The notes under the pieces: generated by a model
Seen by the model: only the letters and a program-made list of their open reading frames with translations
Told to the model about the DNA's origin: nothing
Databases searched by the model: none
NCBI GenBank assembly: GCA_015060925.1
Contig: SUXM01000007.1
Location: 1 to 64,000, forward strand
From: Parabacteroides distasonis
GTDB taxonomy: Bacteria; Bacteroidota; Bacteroidia; Bacteroidales; Tannerellaceae
Direction: 5' to 3'
DNA length: 64,000 nucleotides
Translations under genes and position numbers: made by a program
In this document: positions 2,835-58,945 of the stretch, in pieces
Numbering within the stretch: the first letter of the stretch is position 1
Layout: the number at the start of each line of letters is the position of its first letter

Positions 2835-2961
2835 TTTCTCAGTATGGGATTTTTGTTTCAACCTATGAAACTTTTAGTTTCTCACCTGAAATTTCAGGTT
2901 TCATGGGCAGAAACTTTTTTCTCATCGGTATGAGAATTTTTTCTCATGGGGAGGGGATTTT
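2835..2961. repeat. array 1: about six contiguous degenerate ~20-22-bp hyphenated-palindrome units
   Basis: units start at 2835, 2855, 2877, 2898, 2919, 2941, e.g. GTTTCAACCTATGAAAC, TTCTCATCGGTATGAGAA. Confidence 0.85.
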
Positions 2962-3102: not shown

Positions 3103-3288
3103 TTATTTAAACCATTCTTCAATGTGGTTTTTGGCAAATAAATAATAAACCAAAAGACCAATCCAACCTGTAACCAATAATAAAACAGTACAGATGATTT
3201 TACCGACTGTAGAAATGTTTTTCTTGAATACATCAACCACTGCCAAGATAGCAAGTATCGTACCCGCGAGCCAAATAATAGTACCCAT
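3103..3288 (-). CDS. small two-TM membrane protein, PLDc_N-like
   Basis: 61 aa, two hydrophobic helices, pattern GWIGLLVYYLFAKNHIEEWFK. Confidence 0.6.
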   Translation of the reverse strand: MGTIIWLAGTILAILAVVDVFKKNISTVGKIICTVLLLVTGWIGLLVYYLFAKNHIEEWFK

Positions 3289-17173: not shown

Positions 17174-17707
17174 AAGATGAACAAGTTGATAGTTAGATTG
17201 GGCGTTGCCATGCTTTTTTCTGTTATGGCAACCCTATTATGGGCATCCGATACGGATAACAATACCTATCCTACCAAAAACAGGTTATTTTATATAGCCC
17301 GTAGCTTAAACCGTAACCTGGTTTGTTATGATGCCCATATAGAGAATGGAGTATTAGATACTCAAGAGCCTTTGGATATCTATTGGTTGAACAGGGAGGA
17401 AAACCCAGGGAAGACCAATGGGCTGAATTATTTCCAAAAGAAGATGGCTTATGGTTATAAATTAATTTCCAAAGGGGATGGATACAGCGAAATATCTTTG
17501 ACAGCTTATCCGAAAAGAACCATGAAGATTTGCAAGCATGAAGGGAAGTATGTCTGTATGGTTTCAATTAATGGACAGACCGCTGTTTTATCTTTTATTT
17601 ATGTGAAGACTAAACCCTCCAATTCCCTGTCAGTAGAATATGTGGAGCTAAACGGAACGGATGTTAAGACTGGTGAAGCGTTGAAAGAGAGGGTCGTGAA
17701 TGATTAA
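17174..17707 (+). CDS. DUF4833-like domain protein
   Basis: secreted ~180-aa protein, FYIARSLNRNLVCYDAHIE...DIYWLNREENPGK. Confidence 0.6.
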   Translation, partial: KMNKLIVRLGVAMLFSVMATLLWASDTDNNTYPTKNRLFYIARSLNRNLVCYDAHIENGVLDTQEPLDIYWLNREENPGKTNGLNYFQKKMAYGYKLISKGDGYSEISLTAYPKRTMKICKHEGKYVCMVSINGQTAVLSFIYVKTKPSNSLSVEYVELNGTDVKTGEALKERVVND

Positions 17708-17745: not shown

Positions 17746-17809
17746 AAACTACTTCGGATGTAAGTTCAACTTATGTCCGAAGTAGTTTTTTTTATGTCCG
17801 AGGTAATTT
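17746..17809. terminator. convergent hairpin terminator plus an extra copy of its arm (21-bp period)
   Basis: AAACTACTTCGGA...TCCGAAGTAGTTT stem; next 21 bp TTTTTATGTCCGAGGTAATTT repeat the right arm. Confidence 0.85.
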
Positions 17810-34375: not shown

Positions 34376-34834
34376 TTATTTTGAAGGTTCTACCCTTAAT
34401 CCGATCTCTTGGATGCCTTTTAGTACATCGTCCCGCATCCCTTGACGGATGCTGTATGTGTATTGGCCGGCATGTGGGAACTTATGTGCTTTGCGTAGCA
34501 GGAAGCTGCTATGGAACAAAGAGAACCCCTCTCCATGCCATTTGCCGAACTCATCGGCCAACATGCATTCTGTTGTGTCTTTGTATAAAGATCCGATAGG
34601 TGGTTCTTCGCTATAGAAAATCCATAGGTTCTGGTAGGGGTATAGGTTGTTATTCCTGACCTCAAAGTAGATGTCGTATAGGCAGGTGGCATCTTCAATC
34701 TCAAATGTGAAATAATACTCCTTATCCTTTTCCCATTTGGTCTGTTCGATGGCTTGATATTGATGGTATAAAGCCGGATTGACACAGGAAAAGAATAAGA
34801 AGTGAATCGCTATGAAGAATATCTTTTTAAGCAT
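34376..34834 (-). CDS. gldH: gliding motility lipoprotein GldH
   Basis: lipobox FFSC; GldH-like sequence; overlaps ricT 3' end. Confidence 0.85.
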   Translation of the reverse strand: MLKKIFFIAIHFLFFSCVNPALYHQYQAIEQTKWEKDKEYYFTFEIEDATCLYDIYFEVRNNNLYPYQNLWIFYSEEPPIGSLYKDTTECMLADEFGKWHGEGFSLFHSSFLLRKAHKFPHAGQYTYSIRQGMRDDVLKGIQEIGLRVEPSK

Positions 34835-36209
34835 CCTTATGCGGTTCGGGATGATTTGATGGGTTCATTTGTTGTTGCCCTTTCTCGTTATGGGGGCGGT
34901 TCGGACGATTCCCGTTTCCTTTGCCCGAATGGTTATGGTTGTTGCTTCTGTTGCGGTTCCCATTCCGGTTTCCCCTTACGTTCCGGTTTTCATGCTCACC
35001 ATTCTTGTTGCCTCGTTCCTCTCTGTTACGGGGCTTGGTATCTTCCTCTTGGAGATTGACCATCTCTTGTTGCGGTTGGTTGTTGCGGTTCGTGTTGTTG
35101 TCACGATTGTTGTTACTCCGTTTCTTTTTCTTCTTTTTCATAGAAGCATCAAATCGGGTAACGCTGTCTTGTCCTAAGATGTCTTGGGCATCCCGTTTTT
35201 GCGGTTGTTGTCTGCTTTCATCCAACAGGGAATCCGGCTTAATCCCTCTTTTATTGAGGTTGATGACTTCAAAAACGCGTCTGGCAGGGAGTGTTACCAA
35301 ATTAGCCGCAAGTACTTTGTCGGTCGAGTAGGTGATCTCTCGTTTGAAAATATCAGTTTTGAAATGGTAATAGGTGTTATCTAAAGTTTCCAACACAATC
35401 TCTCTGGATGGCAAGCGTTTATGTGCTTCCACATAGGTGTCAACCTCATAGTTGATGCAACATTTCAACTTGGCACACTGGCCGGCTAACTTCTGTGGGT
35501 TTAAGGATATGTCTTGGTAACGGGCAGCTCCTGTTGCTACTGATATGAAACTGGTCATCCAGCTGGAACAACATAACTCACGTCCGCAAGGCCCGATTCC
35601 TCCGATACGTCCGGCCTCCTGTCGTGCCCCAATTTGCTTCATTTCGATGCGCACACGGAAAGCTTCTGCCAAAACCTTAATTAAGACACGAAAATCCACG
35701 CGCTCATCTGCAATGTAATAAAAGATAGCCTTGTTACCGTCTCCCTGGTATTCCACGTCCCCAATCTTCATGTCCAACCCCAAGTCGGCTGCAATCTGCC
35801 GGGAGCGGATCATTGTTTCATGTTCCCTGGCTTTAGCTTCCTCATATTTCTCAATGTCTGTAGGTCGGGCGATGCGGTACAATTTTTTTGGCTCATATCC
35901 TTCTCCCATCCGGAAGTTGGTTTTTTTCATTTGGAGTAAAACCAACTTGCCGGTCAAAGTGACCATGCCGATGTCATGTCCGGGATTGGCTTCTACTGCC
36001 ACCATGTCTCCTTTCTCTACCGGTATCTTGTTACTGTTGAGATAATAACCTTTACGGGTGTTTTTAAACTGAACCTCCACATAATCAGTTGCATTTGCGG
36101 CGTCAGGAACGTCGCAAAGCCAGTCGTAGGTGTTCAGTTTGGTATTTTGTCTTTTGCTGCATCCTTTACTACTCATGCAGCAACTGCCTGTATTCAATTT
36201 GAAATCCAT
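34827..36209 (-). CDS. ricT: RicT/PSP1-domain Fe-S regulatory protein with a long N/R-rich C-terminal tail
   Basis: PSP1 core IGGIGPCGRELCCSSW...CAKLKCCINYE; -7 TACATTTG (minus) at 36260-36267 fixes start at 36209. Confidence 0.88.
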   Translation of the reverse strand: MDFKLNTGSCCMSSKGCSKRQNTKLNTYDWLCDVPDAANATDYVEVQFKNTRKGYYLNSNKIPVEKGDMVAVEANPGHDIGMVTLTGKLVLLQMKKTNFRMGEGYEPKKLYRIARPTDIEKYEEAKAREHETMIRSRQIAADLGLDMKIGDVEYQGDGNKAIFYYIADERVDFRVLIKVLAEAFRVRIEMKQIGARQEAGRIGGIGPCGRELCCSSWMTSFISVATGAARYQDISLNPQKLAGQCAKLKCCINYEVDTYVEAHKRLPSREIVLETLDNTYYHFKTDIFKREITYSTDKVLAANLVTLPARRVFEVINLNKRGIKPDSLLDESRQQPQKRDAQDILGQDSVTRFDASMKKKKKKRSNNNRDNNTNRNNQPQQEMVNLQEEDTKPRNREERGNKNGEHENRNVRGNRNGNRNRSNNHNHSGKGNGNRPNRPHNEKGQQQMNPSNHPEPHKDA

Positions 36210-36325
36210 TTTCCGGTATATATCGATTATATAGGTATAAGATTCTATTCTCTCATCTGCAAATGTAATTAAAATATTTGGTACGATGCAAGTGATAGGA
36301 ATTTTCAGCCGAAAAAATAAACAAA

Positions 36326-36410
36326 GTTTCTGTCTTTGAGAAAAAGTTTCATTCGATGGAACTTTTTTCTCATTAGTATGAGAATTTTTTCTCATCCGAT
36401 GAAACTGACG
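36326..36410. repeat. array 2: four ~20-22-bp hyphenated-palindrome units
   Basis: units at 36326, 36346, 36367, 36389; 36360-36395 matches 2912-2947 of array 1 at 34/36 positions. Confidence 0.88.
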
Positions 36411-36649: not shown

Positions 36650-37240
36650 ATGAGAAAGTGTTACTACATGTTACTGTTGTGCTGTCTGAGTCTGGTCTGC
36701 TACGCCCAGAAAGATTTGTCAGCAAGTAAAGGTTCAGTAGTGGGATTGAAAACGAATATTCCATACTGGGGAACCGCTACGTTTAATGCAGGTGTTGAAT
36801 TCCGACTTGCGAAAAAATGGACCTTGGATGTCGAAGCCGGTTTGAACCCTTTTGACGGGAAAAAAGATGATGGTAGTTACGATAAATCTTTAAAGCATTT
36901 ACGTGTACATCCTGAACTACGTTATTGGTTCTGTGAAAGCTTCTATAAGCATTTCATCGGCTTGCATGTCCCTTATTTGCTTTATAATATTGCCGATATC
37001 AAGATCTTGGGTACTGAAGGCGAACGCCACCAGGGTTGGGGTACCGGTGTCGGTTTGAGTTATGGTTACTCTTGGTTGTTGTCCAAGCATTGGAACTTGG
37101 AAGCCACTGTTGGTGTGGGTTACCTTTATTTGGAATCTGAAAAATATCCGTGTACCAATTGCGGACGTAAGCAGGAGACCATTAAGAAACATTATTTCGG
37201 CCCAACACAGGCTGCTATTAATTTGATTTATCAATTTTAA
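36650..37240 (+). CDS. DUF3575-like outer-membrane beta-barrel protein
   Basis: signal peptide, VGLKTNIPYWGTATFNAGVEFRLAKKWTLDVEAGLNPF, C-terminal aromatic residue; start of fimbrial operon. Confidence 0.8.
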   Translation: MRKCYYMLLLCCLSLVCYAQKDLSASKGSVVGLKTNIPYWGTATFNAGVEFRLAKKWTLDVEAGLNPFDGKKDDGSYDKSLKHLRVHPELRYWFCESFYKHFIGLHVPYLLYNIADIKILGTEGERHQGWGTGVGLSYGYSWLLSKHWNLEATVGVGYLYLESEKYPCTNCGRKQETIKKHYFGPTQAAINLIYQF

Positions 37241-37258
37241 AAGAGGGAGGAGACAAAT

Positions 37259-38698
37259 ATGAATAAAAGAATTAGAACCCAATTGATGGTTTGCGGTGCA
37301 TTTCTTGGAGTCTTCTCATTGCAGGCGCAAGAAAATGTGGAACAAATAGTAATCAAACAAAAGTTGGTAGAGCGTGTGGATACCTCTTTGATGGTCAATA
37401 TGACGATGGATTTGAGCCGGTTAGAGGTCTCTTCCGGACAGAGCGTGGTCTATACCCCGGTTATCGAACGGGGAGATAGCATTGTAGCGCTTACTCCGTT
37501 GATCGTCAATGGGCGTGCACGCCATATTTTATATCAGCGTACGGATCGCAATTTGACAGAAAATAAGGAGTTTGAAATCCGTAGATTCAATGAAACGGAA
37601 CAGACGTTTGATTATCACGCGCGTGTACCTTTTAAAAAATGGATGGAAAAGTCAGAAGTGTCGATGGTGACAGACCTTTGTGGATGCGGTTGGGAAGCTT
37701 TGCAGAACGATAAATCTCCATTGTTCCCTATTAATATGGCGAAACCGGTGGTCTTAACACCGATCATGGCCTATGTTGCTCCGCAAGTAGAAGCGGTTAA
37801 AGCTCGTTCATTAGAAGGTAGTGCCTTTTTGGATTTCCCGGTGAACAAGATTGTCATCTACCCGGATTATCGTAACAACCCGGTGGAATTGAGAAAAATA
37901 CGTGAGACAGTAGAATCTGTCCGTAATGATAAATATGCAACCATTACAGAAGTGTATATCAAAGGGTGGGCTTCTCCGGAAGGTACTTATGCTAATAATA
38001 CCTATTTGGCTGAAAACCGTGCCAAGGCGTTGCGTAACTATGTGGAAGGTTTGTATGATTTCAAGGACGCTCGTTTCACTGTAGACTTTGAACCGGAAAA
38101 CTGGGAAGGGTTGACCAAGCGGGTGGAAGCATCCAACTTGCCGGATAAGGATAAGATTTTGGAAATCATCCATGCTGACGAGCCGAAAGATTGGGATGCA
38201 CGTGAATGGAAATTGAAGGCGTTACCTTCTTACCAGACGATCTTGCGGGATATCTATCCGGCTCTTCGCCATTCTGACTATGTGGTGAAATATACCATCC
38301 GCAACTTCTCTGTAGATGAAGCGAAGGAATTGATCTATAGTGATCCGAAGCAGTTGAGCTTGAACGAAATGTTCCAGGTGGCTCAGACTTACGAACCGGG
38401 TAGCGACCGTTTTAATGAAGTGTTTGAAATCGCTGTCCGTATGTATCCGGATGATCCTGTATCAAATTTGAATGCTGCGTTGAGTGCTATTTCTACCGGC
38501 CGTTATGACGCTGCTCGTCGTTATTTGGCTAAAGCACAAGAGTGTCCGCAAAAGCAGTTGGCTGAAGCGAATTTGTTGATGATGGAAGGCAAGTTGAATG
38601 AGGCAGAACAGCTCTTGAATGGCTTGAAAGGTAATACATTTGTGGCTAAACAGGTGGAAGATAACCTGAAGCAGATTGAAGCAAAACGTAACGAATAA
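37259..38698 (+). CDS. DUF3868-like protein with OmpA-like domain and C-terminal helical repeats
   Basis: OmpA-like signature WASPEGTYANNTYLAENRAKALRNYV. Confidence 0.75.
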   Translation: MNKRIRTQLMVCGAFLGVFSLQAQENVEQIVIKQKLVERVDTSLMVNMTMDLSRLEVSSGQSVVYTPVIERGDSIVALTPLIVNGRARHILYQRTDRNLTENKEFEIRRFNETEQTFDYHARVPFKKWMEKSEVSMVTDLCGCGWEALQNDKSPLFPINMAKPVVLTPIMAYVAPQVEAVKARSLEGSAFLDFPVNKIVIYPDYRNNPVELRKIRETVESVRNDKYATITEVYIKGWASPEGTYANNTYLAENRAKALRNYVEGLYDFKDARFTVDFEPENWEGLTKRVEASNLPDKDKILEIIHADEPKDWDAREWKLKALPSYQTILRDIYPALRHSDYVVKYTIRNFSVDEAKELIYSDPKQLSLNEMFQVAQTYEPGSDRFNEVFEIAVRMYPDDPVSNLNAALSAISTGRYDAARRYLAKAQECPQKQLAEANLLMMEGKLNEAEQLLNGLKGNTFVAKQVEDNLKQIEAKRNE

Positions 38699-38711
38699 AA
38701 ACTGGAGCTTT

Positions 38712-40619
38712 ATGATGAATAAGATAACAACAGGTCTCTTTGTTTCTTTGTTATGGCTCTTCTCCGCTTGTACAAATGAGAATTTATTTGTACCGGAAGA
38801 ACAACCGTTGACGCCGGAAGCAGAAGGACCCTATTTCAAATTGACGGTGCATTGCCCGGAAGCCAATGAGGCAGGGGGCTTGCAGACCCGTTCCAATCCG
38901 ACCGGGGGAGAAAATGGCGATGGCCATGAAGCCGGTCAGGATTATGAAACCTCTATCGAGGATATCATGTTGCTTTTCTATCAGGGTACGGAGGGGGTTA
39001 ACTCGCCTGCTTCTACCCCGATCAAGAAGGTGATGTTTTTCAGCCGTGCCGATATGGTGGAAGAGGGTGAAACCGAACCGGTTCGTGTCGGTCTTCCAGG
39101 TGGTGAATATGACCTATTGGTCATTACCAATACCGGTGATTTGCGTGCGCAGTTGCAGGGGAAGAACTTGGGCGAGGTGCGTGATTATCTGCAAAAAGTT
39201 GCTTGGACGGAAAAAAATGGTGCATATAGCCGTTTCGTGATGTCATCAAACGGACACTCTGTGGATAAGGTTACTTTATGTGGTGAAAATTATCGGGCAG
39301 AAACACCGGCTACTGCTGTCGTAGAGGTAGAACGTCATGCCGCACGTGTCGATATGCAATTGAGATATGAGGTGTATGATGTGAACGATGTAACATCGGG
39401 TAAGGCTTTTGCTGTTGTGACCGGCGCTATGATTGTCAATAAGTTGGATGCCGGGTCGTATATGTTGAAACGGGTACAAGCAGCCAATACCACAACCGGT
39501 GGGTATGGCTTGGCTAACACGCGTGAGTACTTGGGATTGGAGTTGCCGGAGTTTGGTGACCATCAGACCAATTACGTGATAGACCCGTGGAGCTTTACCA
39601 AGACAATTGTGAATATCAACCGTAACCTCTTCAACCCCAATGCACCCGGAGAGGGTAGCAGCCCGCTCTCTTCGTTGTATGCGAACTATTTGACAAGCTT
39701 TGGAACTTCAACCTCCAATTGGAAGTTCGAAACGGGCTTTGGCGAGAAGATCGGGGATTGGTATCGCATCGGTTATACGATGGAAAATGCGGTGGAGAAT
39801 GATGAACAGAGCCGTTTTATCAATACAGGAGTGGTTTTTAAAGCCTCTTACGTGCCGGCTAAATACATCACTTATGATGCTTCTGGCAAAGTGATTGTGC
39901 CGGAAGAGGTGGCAAATGAAAAACCGTTTACCTTTTTTGCTTTCAATGGTAAGATCTATCAGACAGCGGAAGCGGTTATGGCTGCCTATATGCCGAATGC
40001 GGTTGGTTATCTCTTTAACTATTCGTTTGCAGGTTTTACATGGGCTCAGGTACAACATTACATCTCCGGAATCAAGGATAATGACCCGACCGGATATAAG
40101 AATTACTTGCGCCGCCAACTGGGTGGTAAATTGCTTACTGCTACCTTGACGGATGCACAGGCTCAAGCTCTTACTTGGGAGGCTTTCATGTGGAATGAAT
40201 ATGGTTATGCTTATGACAATGGTACATTGAAGGTGAATCGAAACGGCAAAGAAACCCGTCGTCTGTTGGCTCGGCACGGATTACATACCTATGTGGATGG
40301 AGTCTGCTACTATCCTTATTGGATCCGCCATTCCAACAACAATGCGGATACAAAGGGAATCATGGAGTATGCAATCGTTCGTAACAATATCTATAAGTTA
40401 CGTTTGGATGGCATTCATGGGTTAGGGTATGACATCCCGTATGAACCGCCGTTTGAGGATGAACCGGAACCGGAAAAACCGGTTATTCCTACGCCTGATC
40501 CTGAACCAACACCTGATCCTGAACCAACGCCTGATCCGGATCCTGTTCCGCAGTTGATTCAGGTGGAAGTGGTTGTAAAGGCTTGGAATGCGTTAACTAA
40601 AGAGACTATCATTTTTTAA
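38712..40619 (+). CDS. Mfa1/FimA-family major fimbrillin lipoprotein precursor
   Basis: lipobox LFSAC; possible Arg-processing site LQTR|S; proline-rich C-terminal linker before VEVVVKAWN. Confidence 0.8.
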   Translation: MMNKITTGLFVSLLWLFSACTNENLFVPEEQPLTPEAEGPYFKLTVHCPEANEAGGLQTRSNPTGGENGDGHEAGQDYETSIEDIMLLFYQGTEGVNSPASTPIKKVMFFSRADMVEEGETEPVRVGLPGGEYDLLVITNTGDLRAQLQGKNLGEVRDYLQKVAWTEKNGAYSRFVMSSNGHSVDKVTLCGENYRAETPATAVVEVERHAARVDMQLRYEVYDVNDVTSGKAFAVVTGAMIVNKLDAGSYMLKRVQAANTTTGGYGLANTREYLGLELPEFGDHQTNYVIDPWSFTKTIVNINRNLFNPNAPGEGSSPLSSLYANYLTSFGTSTSNWKFETGFGEKIGDWYRIGYTMENAVENDEQSRFINTGVVFKASYVPAKYITYDASGKVIVPEEVANEKPFTFFAFNGKIYQTAEAVMAAYMPNAVGYLFNYSFAGFTWAQVQHYISGIKDNDPTGYKNYLRRQLGGKLLTATLTDAQAQALTWEAFMWNEYGYAYDNGTLKVNRNGKETRRLLARHGLHTYVDGVCYYPYWIRHSNNNADTKGIMEYAIVRNNIYKLRLDGIHGLGYDIPYEPPFEDEPEPEKPVIPTPDPEPTPDPEPTPDPDPVPQLIQVEVVVKAWNALTKETIIF

Positions 40620-40638
40620 TCCATAAAATCGTAAAAGA

Positions 40639-41652
40639 ATGAAACGATATAAAACACTATATAAAATATTACCGGTGTGGGTTTTGATGCTTTTGGCCGG
40701 TTTGTCGAGTTGTGATTACATTCACGATGATATCGACCCTTGTGATCATTACTTCCGTTTTGCTTACACTTATAACATGAAGTTTGCGGATGCATTCACG
40801 CATGAGATGATTAATCAAGAGAGAGCTAAGAATGTGCAGCTTTTCATCTTTGATAAAGAAGGTAAGTTCTTGCAAACGAAAATCTTTGAAGGAGAGGCTT
40901 TGCAGACTAACCGTTTCAAATTGGATCTCGAACCGGGTACTTATCGTTTTTTGGCTTGGGGGGGCTTGAATGAAACCGATTATGCTTGGAATGAACCGGC
41001 TACGGGAAGTACTATCGAAGAGTTCAAGATGAGCGTGAAACGTTCAGCCCAAAACAGTGTCAGCCGTGAGTTGTTAGGTCTGTTCCAAGGGGAGATGACT
41101 TTCACGATTCCGGAAGAGACCTCTGAACATGTGATGTATTTGGTGAAGAACACCAATAAAATCCGCTTTGTTTTTATCGACCCGAATACCGGTACTGAAA
41201 ACTGGACAAAGGAGAGCTTCGAAGTGAAGGTGGTGACAAACAATGGAGATTTGGCCTATAACAATGCTCCGGTTTCCAATACGGCAATGACTTGGTTACC
41301 TTATTACAGTGCTTTGGAAAATGTAAGGGGAACGGATGCAGGTACGGTTTATCAGGCTTTGTGTATGGAACTGAATACCTTACGTTTGATGGATAATACT
41401 AACGGACGTTTGCAACTTCGTTATACGGAAGAGGATGAACCCTTTTTGAATGTCAACCTGACTGACTTCCTTTTGTTGACACAGATGGAGTCACATAAGC
41501 TGGGCGCACAGGAATATTTGGATCGCCAGGATGAATATACTGTCATGGTCTATGTCGATGTGATGGGCGGTAAGGCTCATTGCTTGGAGGTGATTGTGAA
41601 TGATTGGGTGATTCGTTTAAACGATATTGATCTGGGAAAGGAGGAGTTGTAA
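40639..41652 (+). CDS. FimB/Mfa2-family fimbrial anchor lipoprotein
   Basis: lipobox GLSSC; CDYIHDDIDPCDHYFRFAYTYNMKFADAF; LEPGTYRFLAWGG. Confidence 0.85.
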   Translation: MKRYKTLYKILPVWVLMLLAGLSSCDYIHDDIDPCDHYFRFAYTYNMKFADAFTHEMINQERAKNVQLFIFDKEGKFLQTKIFEGEALQTNRFKLDLEPGTYRFLAWGGLNETDYAWNEPATGSTIEEFKMSVKRSAQNSVSRELLGLFQGEMTFTIPEETSEHVMYLVKNTNKIRFVFIDPNTGTENWTKESFEVKVVTNNGDLAYNNAPVSNTAMTWLPYYSALENVRGTDAGTVYQALCMELNTLRLMDNTNGRLQLRYTEEDEPFLNVNLTDFLLLTQMESHKLGAQEYLDRQDEYTVMVYVDVMGGKAHCLEVIVNDWVIRLNDIDLGKEEL

Positions 41653-41656
41653 GCCT

Positions 41657-42985
41657 ATGACTGGACGATTTAATTATGTAATGGCTCTCTTCTTACCGGT
41701 TTGGCTCTTGTTGAGCGCCTGTGTAAAAGAAGAGATGGAGGGTGGTGGTGTCCCCGCCGGTGAAAGGGTGGCACTTGCCTTGCAGATTGCTGTGGATGAG
41801 GGTAATGGCCTATTGCCTCAGACTAAAGCGGATGTATATTTGGAAAAGGGGGAATTGATCAACTCTTTGACCGCTTTCATTGTCGATGAGTATGGTTATA
41901 TCGAAACGGTGGTTCCTTTTTCCTTTACGGATGCGCAAAAGGGGTTGATGGCTACCGGTGATTTGGATGGATGTGTGTCGGATAAGTTCTTGATTTATCC
42001 GGGTTCTTATACGATTTATGCTTTTGCTAATTGTGATAAGTTGATCGAGATGGCTGAGGTGTTGACGATGAAGAATGGTCGGTTAACTGCTTATCTGCCG
42101 GAAACAATCACTTGGAACGGTGGTGCCGATTTCCAACCGGGTACAACAACGGGCTTTATTCCGATGTCGGGAACAAAAGGATTTACGGTAAGTAACCAAG
42201 GGGGGACAGTGACTGTTTCGTTGGAACGTTTGCTCAGTAAGATACAACTGTCATTCCGTAATTCGACAGATCAAGAGGTGATGGTGAATAGTTGGAAGTT
42301 GGATGGTTTCAATACCAAGATAAACCTGTTTAAACAGAATGCTATTCAAGCGATGGTAAACGCTTGGCCGATAGGACAAACGTATAGTTCGGCTTTATCT
42401 GTAACCTCAAAAGCTACTGTTAATGTTACTGAACCAACATGGTTCTATGTCAGTGAATCCAAATCTGCTGGTGGTTTTGCGATGACATTGAATGCTTCAA
42501 AGACAGGAGGGCAAGACAAAACTGAGTCGACAAGTCGGAAAGAGTTGCCGCGTAACAGTGTATGGCCTATTGAAATCCTGTTCTCTGATTATTATTTGAC
42601 TTTAGCGGTTCAAGGGGAAAATCCTCCGATTGGTGGATATCCGGCTTTGACGACTCAAGAGAGCTTGACAAATTCATTAACTTGTGCAATCATTGGTGGA
42701 GGGCCATTCACGTTGACACCGACATTGAAAGCTACAGCATCGGAAAAGACTGTCCCTGCTGTGACTTGGAGTATCGGAACTGTTAGTAATAGTTTGGTTA
42801 CAGGTTTAACTGTTTCCGAAAACACAATTGTAGGCCGTATGGCTGGTTCGCCTATCATGGGTGGTGAAGGTAATAGTACTCTGATTTCTGAATGTACTTT
42901 TACATTAACAGCAAGCAGCAGTGGTACAACGATCGCCTCTTTTGATATAACGTTAACATTCAAGGATATATTTAGTAACCCATAA
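41657..42985 (+). CDS. fimbrial ancillary (tip/accessory, FimA-fold) lipoprotein
   Basis: lipobox LLSAC; IYPGSYTIYAFANCDKL and LERLLSKIQLSF patterns; in operon. Confidence 0.7.
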   Translation: MTGRFNYVMALFLPVWLLLSACVKEEMEGGGVPAGERVALALQIAVDEGNGLLPQTKADVYLEKGELINSLTAFIVDEYGYIETVVPFSFTDAQKGLMATGDLDGCVSDKFLIYPGSYTIYAFANCDKLIEMAEVLTMKNGRLTAYLPETITWNGGADFQPGTTTGFIPMSGTKGFTVSNQGGTVTVSLERLLSKIQLSFRNSTDQEVMVNSWKLDGFNTKINLFKQNAIQAMVNAWPIGQTYSSALSVTSKATVNVTEPTWFYVSESKSAGGFAMTLNASKTGGQDKTESTSRKELPRNSVWPIEILFSDYYLTLAVQGENPPIGGYPALTTQESLTNSLTCAIIGGGPFTLTPTLKATASEKTVPAVTWSIGTVSNSLVTGLTVSENTIVGRMAGSPIMGGEGNSTLISECTFTLTASSSGTTIASFDITLTFKDIFSNP

Positions 42986-42997
42986 ATATAGGAAAAG

Positions 42998-45900
42998 ATG
43001 CAAACAAGATATAAATATAAATTTCGTCCGCTCTGGGCATTGCTGCTCCTTCTCCTAACAGGAAACAGTAACCTTTGGGGACAGGAACAATGGAAAATAA
43101 CACCTCATACGCATACGGCAAATGAGCATATTCCCATCATTGAACGTACGTTCTATGTACCGGAGGGGGCTACACGCGAATGGTATTTACGAGAAATATA
43201 TAGCCATTCGGGTTTGTATGGAAATGGTTCATATGATGACATGAATTACATTTGGTATCGTCGTTGGTATAGGATGGATACTAATGGTAATGTTATAGAG
43301 TTATCTTCTAATTTAAAGAAACCGACTGGCTCAACGTTGAAAAATGGTATTATAGGATCGGGTAATAGTACAAATGCATGGTTTTGGATTATTGATTTAG
43401 AAACTGAGGACGCTATCAGAAAAGAGAATTCAAAAAATGCTTCTATTATCCAATATACGATGCCTTCTGGAGGTCAGGAGGATGTGATTTATTGTGATGT
43501 GAGTATCAACGGTAATTATACTTTTAATGAAGGTAATCGAACATTAAAAGAACCAACTGTCTCGGCACGATATAAATACATCATAAAACCTGCATCTCAA
43601 GCTCCTTTAAAAAATAATTATCCGACAGAAAAATATACTATTGAGGCTCCAAAAGGAGATACTTTAGTAAATATTCAGATGAATATGTTGCCTGTTGATT
43701 ATTATTGGAAAGATGGAAGTACTATTTATCCAGCACCTCCTTCTGATAAAATTTTAAAAATTGATACAAGAGAATTTGATGCAACTGTTAAAAAACTTAA
43801 TGATGAAACTGTCTCTAGAGATACAGCTACAGCTACCTATGTGAGTGAGTCTGGAGGATCAAGTGTGATTATGGTACATTTTTCAGGTGGTTTTCAGCAA
43901 CCTGTAAAAGTAGAGGTTAAGTTAAAAGATGTATCTGATTGTCCTCTTTTAGGAGAGTTTATCATTAAGCCGCAAGAGTATTCCGGATTTGTATTGGAAG
44001 AAAATATTAAAGAAAATGATGAATTGCGTCATCCGGAGAACTTCCCTAATTTATATGATTTGGTCGGCTCTTTTGACTTTGATTTCAATGAAACTGTGGA
44101 ACAATTAACTCGGGTGAATAATGCTCGAACAATACCGATGACACCGGAACAAACAACCTATGCGTTCTGTTATCCGGATGCTGTACATAAAAGTAAAAGT
44201 TTTAAAGTAAATCCTTTACAAAATCAATATGGACTTTATCGCTCTGCTCAAGTAGAAGATATATCAACGTCTGATGCTACAGGAGGAATAGAAATAGAAG
44301 AGGGGGTTCCTCCTTATAAATGGTTTTTTAATAAAGATGTGGCAGAAGGAAGAAATGAAGTATATGATAGAACTTATGAACGAACAAAAAATACGTATGG
44401 ATATTTCTATTATATTGATGCCTCTTTGGAACGTGGACGTATCGTCAATGTGCCGATTGAAATGTTGTGTGCAAGAACTGAATTGGTTGTAACGGCATGG
44501 GTTAATAACATGACAAGTACAACTGCTGAAACAGTACCTCATTTATTGATTAATTTGCTTGGTCATAAACAAAATGGAGAATATGATGTTTTGCATCAGT
44601 TTGTATCAGGTGATACGTATATTGATTCTAATGCAAGTACAACAGCTAATGCTTATTTAACAAAATGGCAACAGCTGGCGTATAAGTGTGTCATTGACCT
44701 TTCTGATTATACTACTTCATATCAATCTTATTCTGTTGAAATTCTTAATAATGCAGAAAACAGTGGAGGTAATGACTTTGCCATTGATGATATTCGTATT
44801 TATAAGACCTTGCCGAATATTCAGGCTGTACAGACTGATTTTTGTGAGATAAATACAGGTGAAGGGTCGTCTAATACGGCAGAAATAAAGTCTTATATTC
44901 GTGTTCGTACTCCATTTGACCTATTACTTCGTAACTTAGGTTTAGAGGAAATGACTGGAAATCCTATTCTAACATCGTCTGAAGAGTCTAAAGAATTACA
45001 TGACAACACTGAGTCTGAGTATAGACATGGTGAACATCCTCGTCATTATCACTTGTACTATTCGGTTGCAACACAAATCCATGGCGAATGGCAATATTTG
45101 AATTTGGATTATCATAATAATCCGGATAAGTCTGGTTATTTAGTTGGCTATCAAGATGATGATATTAGGTATGGTACATCTGTTATTTCAGCTAATTTTG
45201 GCGATATGCCAACCAGTGGAAAGGATTTAGAAAGAAAGGATGCTTTAGCTTGGACTGAAATTGAAGATGGAGTTAGGTATATTGTGTTTGATAGTATCCC
45301 AATTCATCCTCATCGGTATGAGATAGTAGATGGTAGTGGAAATGGAACCGGAACTTATGCTTGGTATGACACATTACATTTGGGTACTGAATATCATATA
45401 CAGGTTTATCCTCATACCGGTGATCCTCATACTCGTCCTTTACCGGATGATCCATGTGCTTTGGCTACTTCTTTTAAGGTTCATAAATCATTAGAATTGA
45501 TGTATGGAAATGTGCAATTAGAAGATGCAGTTATTTTGCAACCGGGGAAAACGATTACAGGTAAACTTCGTTTTTATAATAAAAGTACGTATGAATGGTC
45601 TGAAGTAAAATCTCCTGAATTTTATTGGTTTTATGGAGAAATAAGTACCATGACTGATCAAGAAATCCAGGAACATTTATTAAATGGAAAATTGGATGAG
45701 TTTACAGAGTCTGTTCATTATAAAAAAGGAACAGATTTCGTTATCCCTTCTCTTTTTCATCGATTGATAGTTGTTCCTACTCAAGAGACTCTTAAAGATA
45801 ACTCCTTACAAAATACAGACATTGGTTTTTGTGTGGATGGTCGTGTCTTGACTTTTGATCCGATTCTTGAACCGGGTGATCCGGAGGTAGATTATCCGGA

Positions 45901-48445
45901 TCCGGATGATCCAGACCCGGACGATCCGGGAGATGATCCGGATGATCCTAATCCAGATCCAGATCCGAAAGATCCAAATGACCCTGAACCGGATGAAGAT
46001 CCTGATCATCCCGGACGATATGTACGTTCAGTTCGTATCATGTTGGAACAGATTCAGGATATGATTAAAAATGTAGATGGTAAGAAAGGTACATTGCGTA
46101 TTCCTATCCATTCAAGAGCAACATCTGATGGACGTAAATTTGTGTTAGATCCGAATAATACTGCTATTCGATTGGTAAGAACTTCGGATCGTGAAGCTCA
46201 TAATTTGAATCATAATTTGGAGGGGATGAGTCGAATTCAGATAGGAACATTGAAAGAACTTGTTTTAAGTAATGACAATACCCTTTCATGGGATACTGAT
46301 TATTTTACAATTTCATTTGAATCAGCTATTACTGACGGTGATAAAAATAATATCGAATTCCGTGAAGGTTTCTGGTATATGGTAGAAGTACCGTTTATGG
46401 AAGTACCAGATAATTATAGTGCAACTACATCAGTAGATGAAATTTATCGTGGTGAATTTAAGTTGACATTCAAGATTGTACCGAAGTATGTGACTTGGAT
46501 TGGAACTGACGCGAAAATGCACAACTGGAATAATGATGGCCCGAAACATTGGCGTCGTTCTACCAATGATGAATTATATTTTGCAGATAATGGTAGTACT
46601 CCGAATGCTGAAGCTAATGGTACTCATACAGAGGCTTACACTCCGATGCGATTCACGAATGTGACAGTTAGTCCTAAATCGAAAGTGTATGACGCTTATC
46701 CTTATTTGTATAAATTGGAAAATAAGGCTCAATCTATTGGTAATATAGTATTATTGGATCTGTCTCCGATTGGCCTATCTAATGAAATTGGTTTGCCTAC
46801 TACTGCTATTGAGTTTGATTTGGTGGCAGACCCGGATTGGCAAAAGATTTTAAAGACAGGAACTAAATTTACTAATTCTGACCATAATTACGCATGTGTT
46901 CGTTTCTATGGCAATGAATGTAATGAAATCTACTTCAAGCCGAATGCAGCGATGTTGCATACTGAGTATCTGACTTACAATAAGGCTTGGGTGGATTATG
47001 AATTGGATGCGAATCGTTGGTACACGTTGGCTTCTCCGTTGAAGGGTATCGTGGCTGGTGATATGTATTTGCCAACATCAGCTCGTCAAGAAACTCCTGC
47101 ATTTACGGATATAAGATATGATGAGACTGGGGGTACTCGTTGGAATCCAGCGGTGTATATGCGAGGATGGAATAAATCCGGTGAAGAAACGGTCATTGTA
47201 AAAGAAGGTACAGGTAACAAATATGCGATCTCTGGTTCATGGAGTAACTTATATAATAAGGTAAGTGAACCGTTTGCAGCTGGAACAGGTTTCTCTATTG
47301 GTGTGGATTATGATCAATCTTCTGCAACAGCTAATAAGGTCTTGTTCCGTTTGCCAAAAGCGGATGTGTCTTATCTGTATTATGAAAATACGACTAACAC
47401 AACAGGAGGAAATAGTGATCCTTTAACCGGTTTTGTTGAAAACAGTCAACGTGTCGGTTATGCTCGCTTAGTTACAGATGGTTTATCTCCTAATGGAATT
47501 TCAAGTTCAACGACTGTAAGTGGTGATTATCAGTTAGTCGGTAATCCATTTATGTCACACTTGGATATGACTAAATACTTTGGAAACAATGGTGGTAGTT
47601 ACTATATCTTGACGAATGAGGGTATTCAGTCTCATATTTTAGGACAGAACTTTGTTCTTTCAACAGGAAGTAATAATGCTTCGGCTAAGAAGGTGGCTCC
47701 CTTACAGTCTTTTATTACGGATAAAGTTGAAAAGATTACTTCTGAGATGATGATAGTACCTTATGATGGAACTGTAACAACAGAACTTCGATCTGCTTCC
47801 GTTCAAGAAACGTTACCGGAAATCCGTATCTCTACAGAGAAAGATGGTGTGAAGAATACGGCCGTAGTAGCTTATTATGGTACGGCTTCTGAAGGATATG
47901 CTCCAAATGAAGATGCTGTATTGTTTATCGATAAGCAGATAAATATCCCTCAGATCTATACTGTAGCCGGAAATAAGTTGACAGCCATCAATGTCACTCC
48001 GGAATTGAATGATGTGCCATTAGGTATCTATAGTGCCGATAATAGTCCGGTTGAGTTGCGTTTCTCGGTATCAGCGAGTATGGGTAATGTCTCTTTGTTC
48101 GACAATTATACTAAGAAGAGTTATACATTAACTGACGGCATGACAATCTCTGTAGCCGGAAATACTTCAGGTCGTTACTTCTTGAGAGGAACGATGGCAA
48201 CCTCTAATGAACTTGTTGCTAAGAAGGAGGCTCTTTGTTACAGTGGTGCTCCGGGACGTATTGATGTGATCCATTCGGAATCTTTACGTCAAGTGGCTAT
48301 TTATAGCTTGAATGGCCAACGTGTCCGTTTCTTGGATAACTTGAATACTTCGGTATTGACGCTTGATGGTTTTGCTTCCGGTTTGTATATTGTCCGTATG
48401 GAAGGTCCGAACGGTGTTTGTACCGAAAAGGTAGAAGTGAAGTAA
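42998..48445 (+). CDS. giant (1815 aa) fimbria-associated surface adhesin with Asp-Pro linker and T9SS-type-A-like C-terminal domain
   Basis: signal peptide; DPDDPDPDDPGDDPDDPNPDPDP linker; C-terminus VAIYSLNGQRVRFLDNL...LTLDGFASGLYIVRMEGPNGVCTEKVEVK. Confidence 0.75.
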   Translation: MQTRYKYKFRPLWALLLLLLTGNSNLWGQEQWKITPHTHTANEHIPIIERTFYVPEGATREWYLREIYSHSGLYGNGSYDDMNYIWYRRWYRMDTNGNVIELSSNLKKPTGSTLKNGIIGSGNSTNAWFWIIDLETEDAIRKENSKNASIIQYTMPSGGQEDVIYCDVSINGNYTFNEGNRTLKEPTVSARYKYIIKPASQAPLKNNYPTEKYTIEAPKGDTLVNIQMNMLPVDYYWKDGSTIYPAPPSDKILKIDTREFDATVKKLNDETVSRDTATATYVSESGGSSVIMVHFSGGFQQPVKVEVKLKDVSDCPLLGEFIIKPQEYSGFVLEENIKENDELRHPENFPNLYDLVGSFDFDFNETVEQLTRVNNARTIPMTPEQTTYAFCYPDAVHKSKSFKVNPLQNQYGLYRSAQVEDISTSDATGGIEIEEGVPPYKWFFNKDVAEGRNEVYDRTYERTKNTYGYFYYIDASLERGRIVNVPIEMLCARTELVVTAWVNNMTSTTAETVPHLLINLLGHKQNGEYDVLHQFVSGDTYIDSNASTTANAYLTKWQQLAYKCVIDLSDYTTSYQSYSVEILNNAENSGGNDFAIDDIRIYKTLPNIQAVQTDFCEINTGEGSSNTAEIKSYIRVRTPFDLLLRNLGLEEMTGNPILTSSEESKELHDNTESEYRHGEHPRHYHLYYSVATQIHGEWQYLNLDYHNNPDKSGYLVGYQDDDIRYGTSVISANFGDMPTSGKDLERKDALAWTEIEDGVRYIVFDSIPIHPHRYEIVDGSGNGTGTYAWYDTLHLGTEYHIQVYPHTGDPHTRPLPDDPCALATSFKVHKSLELMYGNVQLEDAVILQPGKTITGKLRFYNKSTYEWSEVKSPEFYWFYGEISTMTDQEIQEHLLNGKLDEFTESVHYKKGTDFVIPSLFHRLIVVPTQETLKDNSLQNTDIGFCVDGRVLTFDPILEPGDPEVDYPDPDDPDPDDPGDDPDDPNPDPDPKDPNDPEPDEDPDHPGRYVRSVRIMLEQIQDMIKNVDGKKGTLRIPIHSRATSDGRKFVLDPNNTAIRLVRTSDREAHNLNHNLEGMSRIQIGTLKELVLSNDNTLSWDTDYFTISFESAITDGDKNNIEFREGFWYMVEVPFMEVPDNYSATTSVDEIYRGEFKLTFKIVPKYVTWIGTDAKMHNWNNDGPKHWRRSTNDELYFADNGSTPNAEANGTHTEAYTPMRFTNVTVSPKSKVYDAYPYLYKLENKAQSIGNIVLLDLSPIGLSNEIGLPTTAIEFDLVADPDWQKILKTGTKFTNSDHNYACVRFYGNECNEIYFKPNAAMLHTEYLTYNKAWVDYELDANRWYTLASPLKGIVAGDMYLPTSARQETPAFTDIRYDETGGTRWNPAVYMRGWNKSGEETVIVKEGTGNKYAISGSWSNLYNKVSEPFAAGTGFSIGVDYDQSSATANKVLFRLPKADVSYLYYENTTNTTGGNSDPLTGFVENSQRVGYARLVTDGLSPNGISSSTTVSGDYQLVGNPFMSHLDMTKYFGNNGGSYYILTNEGIQSHILGQNFVLSTGSNNASAKKVAPLQSFITDKVEKITSEMMIVPYDGTVTTELRSASVQETLPEIRISTEKDGVKNTAVVAYYGTASEGYAPNEDAVLFIDKQINIPQIYTVAGNKLTAINVTPELNDVPLGIYSADNSPVELRFSVSASMGNVSLFDNYTKKSYTLTDGMTISVAGNTSGRYFLRGTMATSNELVAKKEALCYSGAPGRIDVIHSESLRQVAIYSLNGQRVRFLDNLNTSVLTLDGFASGLYIVRMEGPNGVCTEKVEVK

Positions 48446-58396: not shown

Positions 58397-58831
58397 ATGG
58401 ATGCAGATTTTAATTATCAATCAGTCCCGGTAAGCTTTGTCCATTGTCTGAAAGGAGAATGCAAGTTTGCAGCGGACTGCCTACGTTACCAAATTACCTT
58501 ACGTATGCCTGCCGATAGGCCATTTGTGACAGTTGTGAATCCTGGGAGCATACAAGCGGATGGGGAGAATTGCCCGCACTTCCGGGAAGATAAAAAGATA
58601 CGGTTCGCCTATGGAATGACTCATTTGTATGATGCCCTTCCATACAAGTTGGCTAATACCATAAAGAGGCAATTATATAATTATTTCGGGCGAAGCATGT
58701 ATTACCGCATTCGTAACAAGGAACGGGCGATTACTCCGCAGGAACAGACCTATATTCAGACCGTTTTTGAAAAGCAAGGGGTGGAGGAGAAACCTCTCTT
58801 TGATGAATATCGGGAGCAATACGATTGGTGA
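58397..58831 (+). CDS. DUF6078-like protein
   Basis: 144-aa ORF with conserved-looking Cys (HCLKGECKFAADCLRY). Confidence 0.6.
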   Translation: MDADFNYQSVPVSFVHCLKGECKFAADCLRYQITLRMPADRPFVTVVNPGSIQADGENCPHFREDKKIRFAYGMTHLYDALPYKLANTIKRQLYNYFGRSMYYRIRNKERAITPQEQTYIQTVFEKQGVEEKPLFDEYREQYDW

Positions 58832-58834
58832 GAG

Positions 58835-58922
58835 TTCTCATAGGCATGAGAATCTTTTCCCATGCCTATGAGATTTTTTTCTCATGCCTATGGGAATTTA
58901 TTCTCATGCCTATGGGAAAAAG
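58835..58922. repeat. array 3: four exact-period 22-bp units, first unit inverted relative to the others
   Basis: units at 58835, 58857, 58879, 58901; consensus TTCTCATGCCTATGRGAANNNN. Confidence 0.92.
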
Positions 58923-58945
58923 TTCTCTATTTCAATAATTATTTG

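Follow-up and report, generated by a model that had tools for sequence, protein, structure and literature searches.

The window analysed here, a stretch of 64,000 nucleotides from Parabacteroides distasonis, carries an array of four palindromic units in the spacer between ricT and a fimbrial operon (Table 1). The flanking genes are divergent, with ricT on the minus strand and the DUF3575 and Mfa1 genes on the plus strand, and the operon (36650-48445) comprises genes for DUF3575 and DUF3868 proteins, an Mfa1-type fimbrillin, an Mfa2 anchor and a protein of 1815 aa. In relatives, the RicT protein aligns at full length from the start at 36209, so the gene does not start with the longer reading frame, which extends to 36395. 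The original prediction, made from the letters alone, had described this divergent arrangement and the units with lengths of 20, 21, 22 and 22 nt, and its coordinates and sequences check out; the distance to the ricT −7 element, given as about 60 bp, is 58 bp when measured to the −7-like box, and the end of the array is, as predicted, 240 bp from the fimbrial operon.

Table 1. Features at and around the palindromic arrays of the window
Feature	Position	Strand	Remarks
ricT-side array	36326..36410	.	four palindromic units, starts 20, 21, 22 bp apart
Unit 1 of ricT-side array	36326-36345		20 nt; GTTTCTGTCTTTGAGAA, imperfect palindrome
Unit 2 of ricT-side array	36346-36366		21 nt; GTTTCATTCGATGGAAC
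Unit 3 of ricT-side array	36367-36388		22 nt; TTCTCATTAGTATGAGAA
Unit 4 of ricT-side array	36389-36410		22 nt; TTCTCATCCGATGAAAC
ricT	34827..36209	-	left neighbour of array; NF041131
ricT −7 box	36260..36267	-	TACATTTG; matches Bacteroidota −7 TAnnTTTG; same context in array-less relatives
DUF3575 gene	36650..37240	+	first gene of right-hand operon
DUF3868 gene	37259		right-hand operon
Mfa1-family major fimbrillin gene	38676		right-hand operon
Mfa2 anchor gene	40639		right-hand operon
dnaK-side sister array	2855..2958	.	units 2855, 2877, 2898, 2919, 2941
dnaK	757-2670	-
Small ORF	3103-3288	-	upstream of dnaK-side array
Third array	58835..58918	.	four units, exact 22-bp spacing

Palindromes of this regularity are far beyond chance: allowing one mismatch, the window holds five matches to TTCTCATN4ATGAGAA where 0.03 would be expected, three of the five being outside the ricT site and two of these in the third array. 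The 36 nucleotides at 36360-36395 match 2912-2947, on the dnaK side, at 34 of 36 positions, compared with 26 of 36 for the best of 100 shuffled windows, and both mismatches fall within the 4-nt core. The description of the ricT-side array as the second copy of a pair has to be widened, given the third array in the window and about 20 more elsewhere in the genome. The third array begins 4 bp past the stop of a DUF6078 gene (58397-58831), upstream of pheT (59013), and its first unit is an exact TTCTCATN4ATGAGAA; TACTTTTG, a −7-like box preceding pheT, is found near its end. When the window's genome is searched with a two-unit model (R1), about 25 places match, and 22 arrays, three of them in the window, are verified under a stricter definition. 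A block of at least 36 bp is common to five of the genome's arrays (dnaK side, ricT side, L191, L253 and L184), and in four of these the unit order further upstream is common as well, while alignment of paralogous arrays in this genome reveals no common flank, leader, tail or terminal repeat outside the units. The genome of a relative (G008) also has multi-unit blocks, of its own unit type, shared between unrelated loci, and there too the similarity stops at the units. No Rfam family is detected at gathering scores within the window. Two further features were observed: a 21-bp tandem pair of different sequence, ATGTCCGAAGTAGTTTTTTTT, at 17763-17807 behind the gene that ends at 17707, and, in the strongly conserved region upstream of dnaK across the genus (L324-L346), a TTTGGCATNNNNTTTGT core with TGTCA-type repeats immediately upstream of it, a possible heat-shock regulatory element.

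The unit consists of a 7-bp arm, a core of 4 nt, a second 7-bp arm and an A/T-rich linker of 4 nt (KTYYCAT-N4-ATGRRAM-N4), usually 22 bp in all, and this layout means that half-site orientation alternates about every 11 bp. Among 170 strong neighbouring units from eight genomes, of which those in one array are not independent of each other, the linker is 4 nt in 169 and the core is 3-5 nt, mostly 4; the distance from start to start is 22 bp in 142, 23 bp in 23 and 21 bp in five, and the 23-bp steps trace to one species, in units whose core is the 5-nt AATAT. Shorter linkers that offset longer cores are absent from the 170 units, so strict helical phasing is not established. CRISPR arrays are made up of repeats with unique spacers of constant length; no such spacers are found here, where units abut with 4-nt linkers.

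Within units, the states of the two arms are linked at positions 1, 3 and 6, and position 4 is uncoupled. Coupling at position 6 reaches z=6.0 within units versus 0.2 between neighbours; neighbouring units also resemble each other at arm positions 1 and 3, which indicates that ancestry contributes to the coupling. The coupling is consistent with a dyad preserved at the DNA level or with palindrome-templated repair, and paired arm changes can stem from copying or hairpin-templated repair rather than from selection. Over 168 pairs of neighbouring units, the cores resemble each other when read in the same orientation (z=+5) and are reverse-complementary less often than chance (z=−4), and cores at mirror positions of arrays show the same pattern; the likeness in the same orientation points to tandem duplication.

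Over 40 relatives, matches to the two-unit model lie mostly within the genus and differ greatly in number between species, with 93 in G002, 53 in G008, 40 in G014, 37 in G012 and none in several species. A strict two-unit pattern recovers 93 stretches, nearly all in Bacteroidales, from Parabacteroides, Tannerellaceae, Prevotella, Hoylesella, Segatella and Bacteroides, where fewer than 0.1 would be expected by chance, by estimate, in the whole collection. The arms are species-specific (TTCTCAT, GTTTCAT, GTTCCAT, TTTTCAT), and their pairing is kept while their sequence changes between species. Three contigs labelled Spirochaetes/Treponema (L093, L109 and L157) are among the stretches and carry TTTTCAT-type arrays, possibly through misbinning or transfer, and L093 has a 22-bp TTTACCTATGGTAAAT array besides. 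In an uncultured Prevotellaceae MAG (L103 and other bin.78 loci), GTTCCATCGTGATGGAAC units lie beside longer 22-bp repeats of the type CTCAACACTTTTGCTCAAAACT. Other repeats were noted as well: a second family in G002, a non-palindromic array of about 23 bp, GTTAGATGGTTAGAATAGGCATT, at L278 863-933 and L350 7274-7344, and a separate, microsatellite-like repeat, intergenic runs of the 7-mer ATAAATC, in several Parabacteroides (L328, L358, L424 and L425).

At orthologous sites, an array upstream of ricT is present in one of 30 genus genomes, that of the window, although the ricT promoter is conserved in many others. Most relatives have a different gene upstream of ricT, transcribed in the same direction, indicating that the neighbourhood was rearranged in the window's lineage. 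The array upstream of dnaK is likewise confined to the window's genome (one of 24), and the dnaK promoter region remains conserved where the array is missing. A test proposed with the original prediction, conservation of position or period in close relatives, thus has a divided outcome, in that the period is conserved and the position is not. The 3' end of the gene for inositol-phosphate synthase (MIPS) has arrays of 3, 3, 4 and 5 units in four sister species, each ahead of a separate terminator-like hairpin. Among 40 orthologous 3' ends, the sister-species counterparts of array-bearing loci, an array is present at 22, mostly with a different number of units, and clean empty sites also occur. 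In place, arrays expand and contract by whole units, and unit blocks recur at unrelated loci. One orthologous 3' end (L226, L428, L432) has a longer stem that reads CAGC/GCTG in one species and CTGC/GCAG in two, an apparent compensatory double change.

The arrays are unevenly placed with respect to genes, which were called with a purpose-written, simple codon-based caller in genomes several of which are drafts. Convergent, codirectional and divergent spacers account for 14, 51 and 11 arrays in the genus set, compared with 14, 102 and 46 background spacers (convergent versus divergent, p=0.005), and for 31, 35 and 6 arrays in a wide set, compared with 44, 128 and 54 (p=4e-5), where the background is drawn from spacers of 100 bp or more at the same loci and one MAG with 23 loci weighs heavily. 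Of 79 gene 3' ends that face an array, 45 are no more than 40 bp away from it (median 31), versus 12 of 73 5' ends (median 113), and a single one of 77 genus arrays lies inside a called gene. Given this preference for 3' ends and the avoidance of divergent spacers, the ricT copy is atypical.

The ricT-side array is probably a copy of a dispersed, non-coding palindromic minisatellite, similar to REP/BIME or BrickBuilt elements, which grows, contracts and disperses unit by unit and acts, if at all, on DNA. Such arrays would form by tandem duplication and by copying of unit blocks, and would be tolerated mainly just 3' of genes; the ricT copy would have been inserted upstream of the ricT promoter in this lineage alone and would have no conserved role there. 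Any action would be exerted on double-stranded DNA, through a dyad-binding nucleoid-type protein or as a topological boundary with two-turn spacing, and the arrays would serve neither as RNA terminators nor as operators of the flanking genes.

The strong placement at 3' ends and the compensatory arm changes are also what might be seen if the units were tandem hairpins in 3'-UTRs, serving as bidirectional terminators or as stabilisers of mRNA 3' ends. Arrays fold better than shuffled sequences (z −3.4 to −9.7), in some convergent gene pairs (L198, L201) the array alone separates the two genes, and the 3'-end preference and positional conservation could reflect an mRNA 3'-end function. Intrinsic terminators are GC-rich hairpins followed by a U run on the transcribed strand, and the arrays resemble them as short hairpins beside T runs behind genes, but differ in that neither the T runs nor G.U-type mismatches show a strand preference. 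RNA hairpins would favour G.U over A.C, and the transcribed-strand stems have 109 G.T and 92 A.C mismatches (p=0.26), or 78 and 62 in arrays near stops only (p=0.20); the lack of such an excess argues against terminators. The transcribed-strand linkers likewise have 263 T and 257 A and no U-rich excess, the MIPS array precedes a terminator-like hairpin of its own, and the copies at ricT and in other divergent spacers stand upstream of promoters. An RNA-level role is thus regarded as unlikely. A directional intrinsic terminator, which had not been expected at 36326-36410 in the first place, was rejected for the family because neither mismatches nor linker T content are asymmetric between strands and the stems are A/T-rich.

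Movement in trans by a transposase, as with REP/RAYT or MITE-type elements, would account for the multi-unit blocks common to unrelated loci in the window's genome and in G008, the species-specific consensus, the very unequal copy numbers between species and the clean empty sites. A search that targeted PF01797 (Y1/RAYT) only, a family that includes the RAYTs, found it in eight of nine genomes from other families and in five controls, but in none of the 16 genomes searched from the genus, two of which, G013 and G014, are closed. Furthermore, two sets of paralogues share no leader, tail or terminal inverted repeat beyond the units, and over half of the orthologous sites keep an array, so that mobility of this kind is doubtful. 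REP and BIME elements are extragenic palindromes in regular clusters, species-specific and with palindromy maintained through complementary changes (PMC2817692, PMC3733652). The present arrays share with them the short extragenic palindromes, the many dispersed copies, the species specificity and the complementary changes, but the GTAG or CGTC tag of REPs is absent from the unit consensus, a cognate RAYT, flanked by the repeats, accompanies REPs in their lineages, and separate REPs of 20-40 bp with variable linkers stand in contrast to units directly in tandem at 22 bp. In the passages searched, the REP papers (PMC2817692, PMC3733652, PMC12306157) mention neither Parabacteroides nor Prevotella.

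The closest described element to the Parabacteroides arrays, and a precedent for a mobile origin, is BrickBuilt of Porphyromonas gingivalis, a 23-nt minisatellite within a MITE, which shows promoter activity and whose leader and tail segments carry IS5-type terminal inverted repeats (PMC4596501). Both are intergenic, belong to the same bacterial order, occur at about 20 intergenic copies per genome and consist of spacer-free tandem units of near-equal length that are gained and lost (between strains in BrickBuilt, between species here), and the BrickBuilt consensus, in the rotation CCTCTCRTRTGAGAYCATARTAT, holds the palindrome TCTCATATGAGA. The BrickBuilt unit is, however, 23 nt long and of another sequence, whereas the units here are 22 bp with arms that vary by species, and the leader, tail and terminal inverted repeats of BrickBuilt have no counterpart in arrays whose likeness stops at the units.

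The original prediction implied a promoter-linked role at ricT, the fimbriae and dnaK. A rival reading takes the arrays as tandem sites of a transcription regulator for these genes. Compatible with an operator array are the dyad units themselves, which are spaced at nearly two turns and lie 58 bp upstream of the ricT −7 box, and half-site position 4, which varies independently in both arms, as recognition of double-stranded DNA predicts. The implied role was not supported: in relatives the promoters are kept and the arrays are absent, and the counts at ricT and dnaK make a conserved operator unlikely. The family as a whole is dispersed, lies behind stop codons and is scarce in divergent spacers, and its arms change from species to species, so that an operator array appears very unlikely and the ricT-side array is probably not an operator of ricT. 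That a whole array folds back into a single long hairpin, in which units on opposite sides pair by means of complementary cores, is barely conceivable, for although the array at 58831-58925 folds as one (z −9.7), the orientation of the cores, at neighbouring and at mirror positions, rejects this as a general rule.

Within the reading of the arrays as a dispersed minisatellite, the period can be considered apart from the sequence. A scan for tandem self-similarity, blind to unit sequence, over 112.6 kb of intergenic DNA from the genus found 32 segments at lags of 21-23 (8, 20 and 4) versus 10 at the remaining lags between 12 and 40, with harmonics at lags 42-44. The sample consisted of the ricT, dnaK and MIPS loci and twenty 20-kb stretches picked regardless of arrays; ricT and dnaK were fixed before the result, while MIPS was picked for its array and adds a few hits. 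Such tandem pairs are virtually absent from shuffled sequences and from 36 kb of E. coli intergenic DNA, and a small sample of 32 kb from other families gave one hit each at lags 20-23. Many repeats with a period of about 22 bp are unrelated in sequence, such as TATCTTTAGCCTAAAGATACA in G015, CTCTGCCAAGCCTGTGGCAAGA in G022 and AAGTATCTTAGGTGCGTTGGCA in G001. Tentatively, Parabacteroides, and perhaps Bacteroidales, may harbour a general class of intergenic minisatellites, with the ricT array as a member, whose period stays at 21-22 bp, or about two turns, with the sequence free to vary both between and within genomes. In this view a cellular ruler fixes the period, for instance a copying enzyme or a nucleoid protein that binds dyads. 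Instead of such a ruler, all arrays may share a common origin and have kept their length while losing their sequence.

Palindromic intergenic repeats with RAYT transposases are well described in Proteobacteria. Parabacteroides, common gut bacteria, contain an abundant palindromic family with species-specific arms and a constant period, for which no RAYT was found in the genus genomes searched, and no description of such arrays in Parabacteroides or Prevotella was found in the open-access literature. Palindromic arrays of this kind account for some assembly breaks at repeat ends, and should not be taken as operators of the genes that they adjoin. The combination of a constant period with a free sequence merits a dedicated scan and, should a protein or enzyme prove to set the period, would lead directly to a nucleoid or repeat-copying activity new to Bacteroidota.
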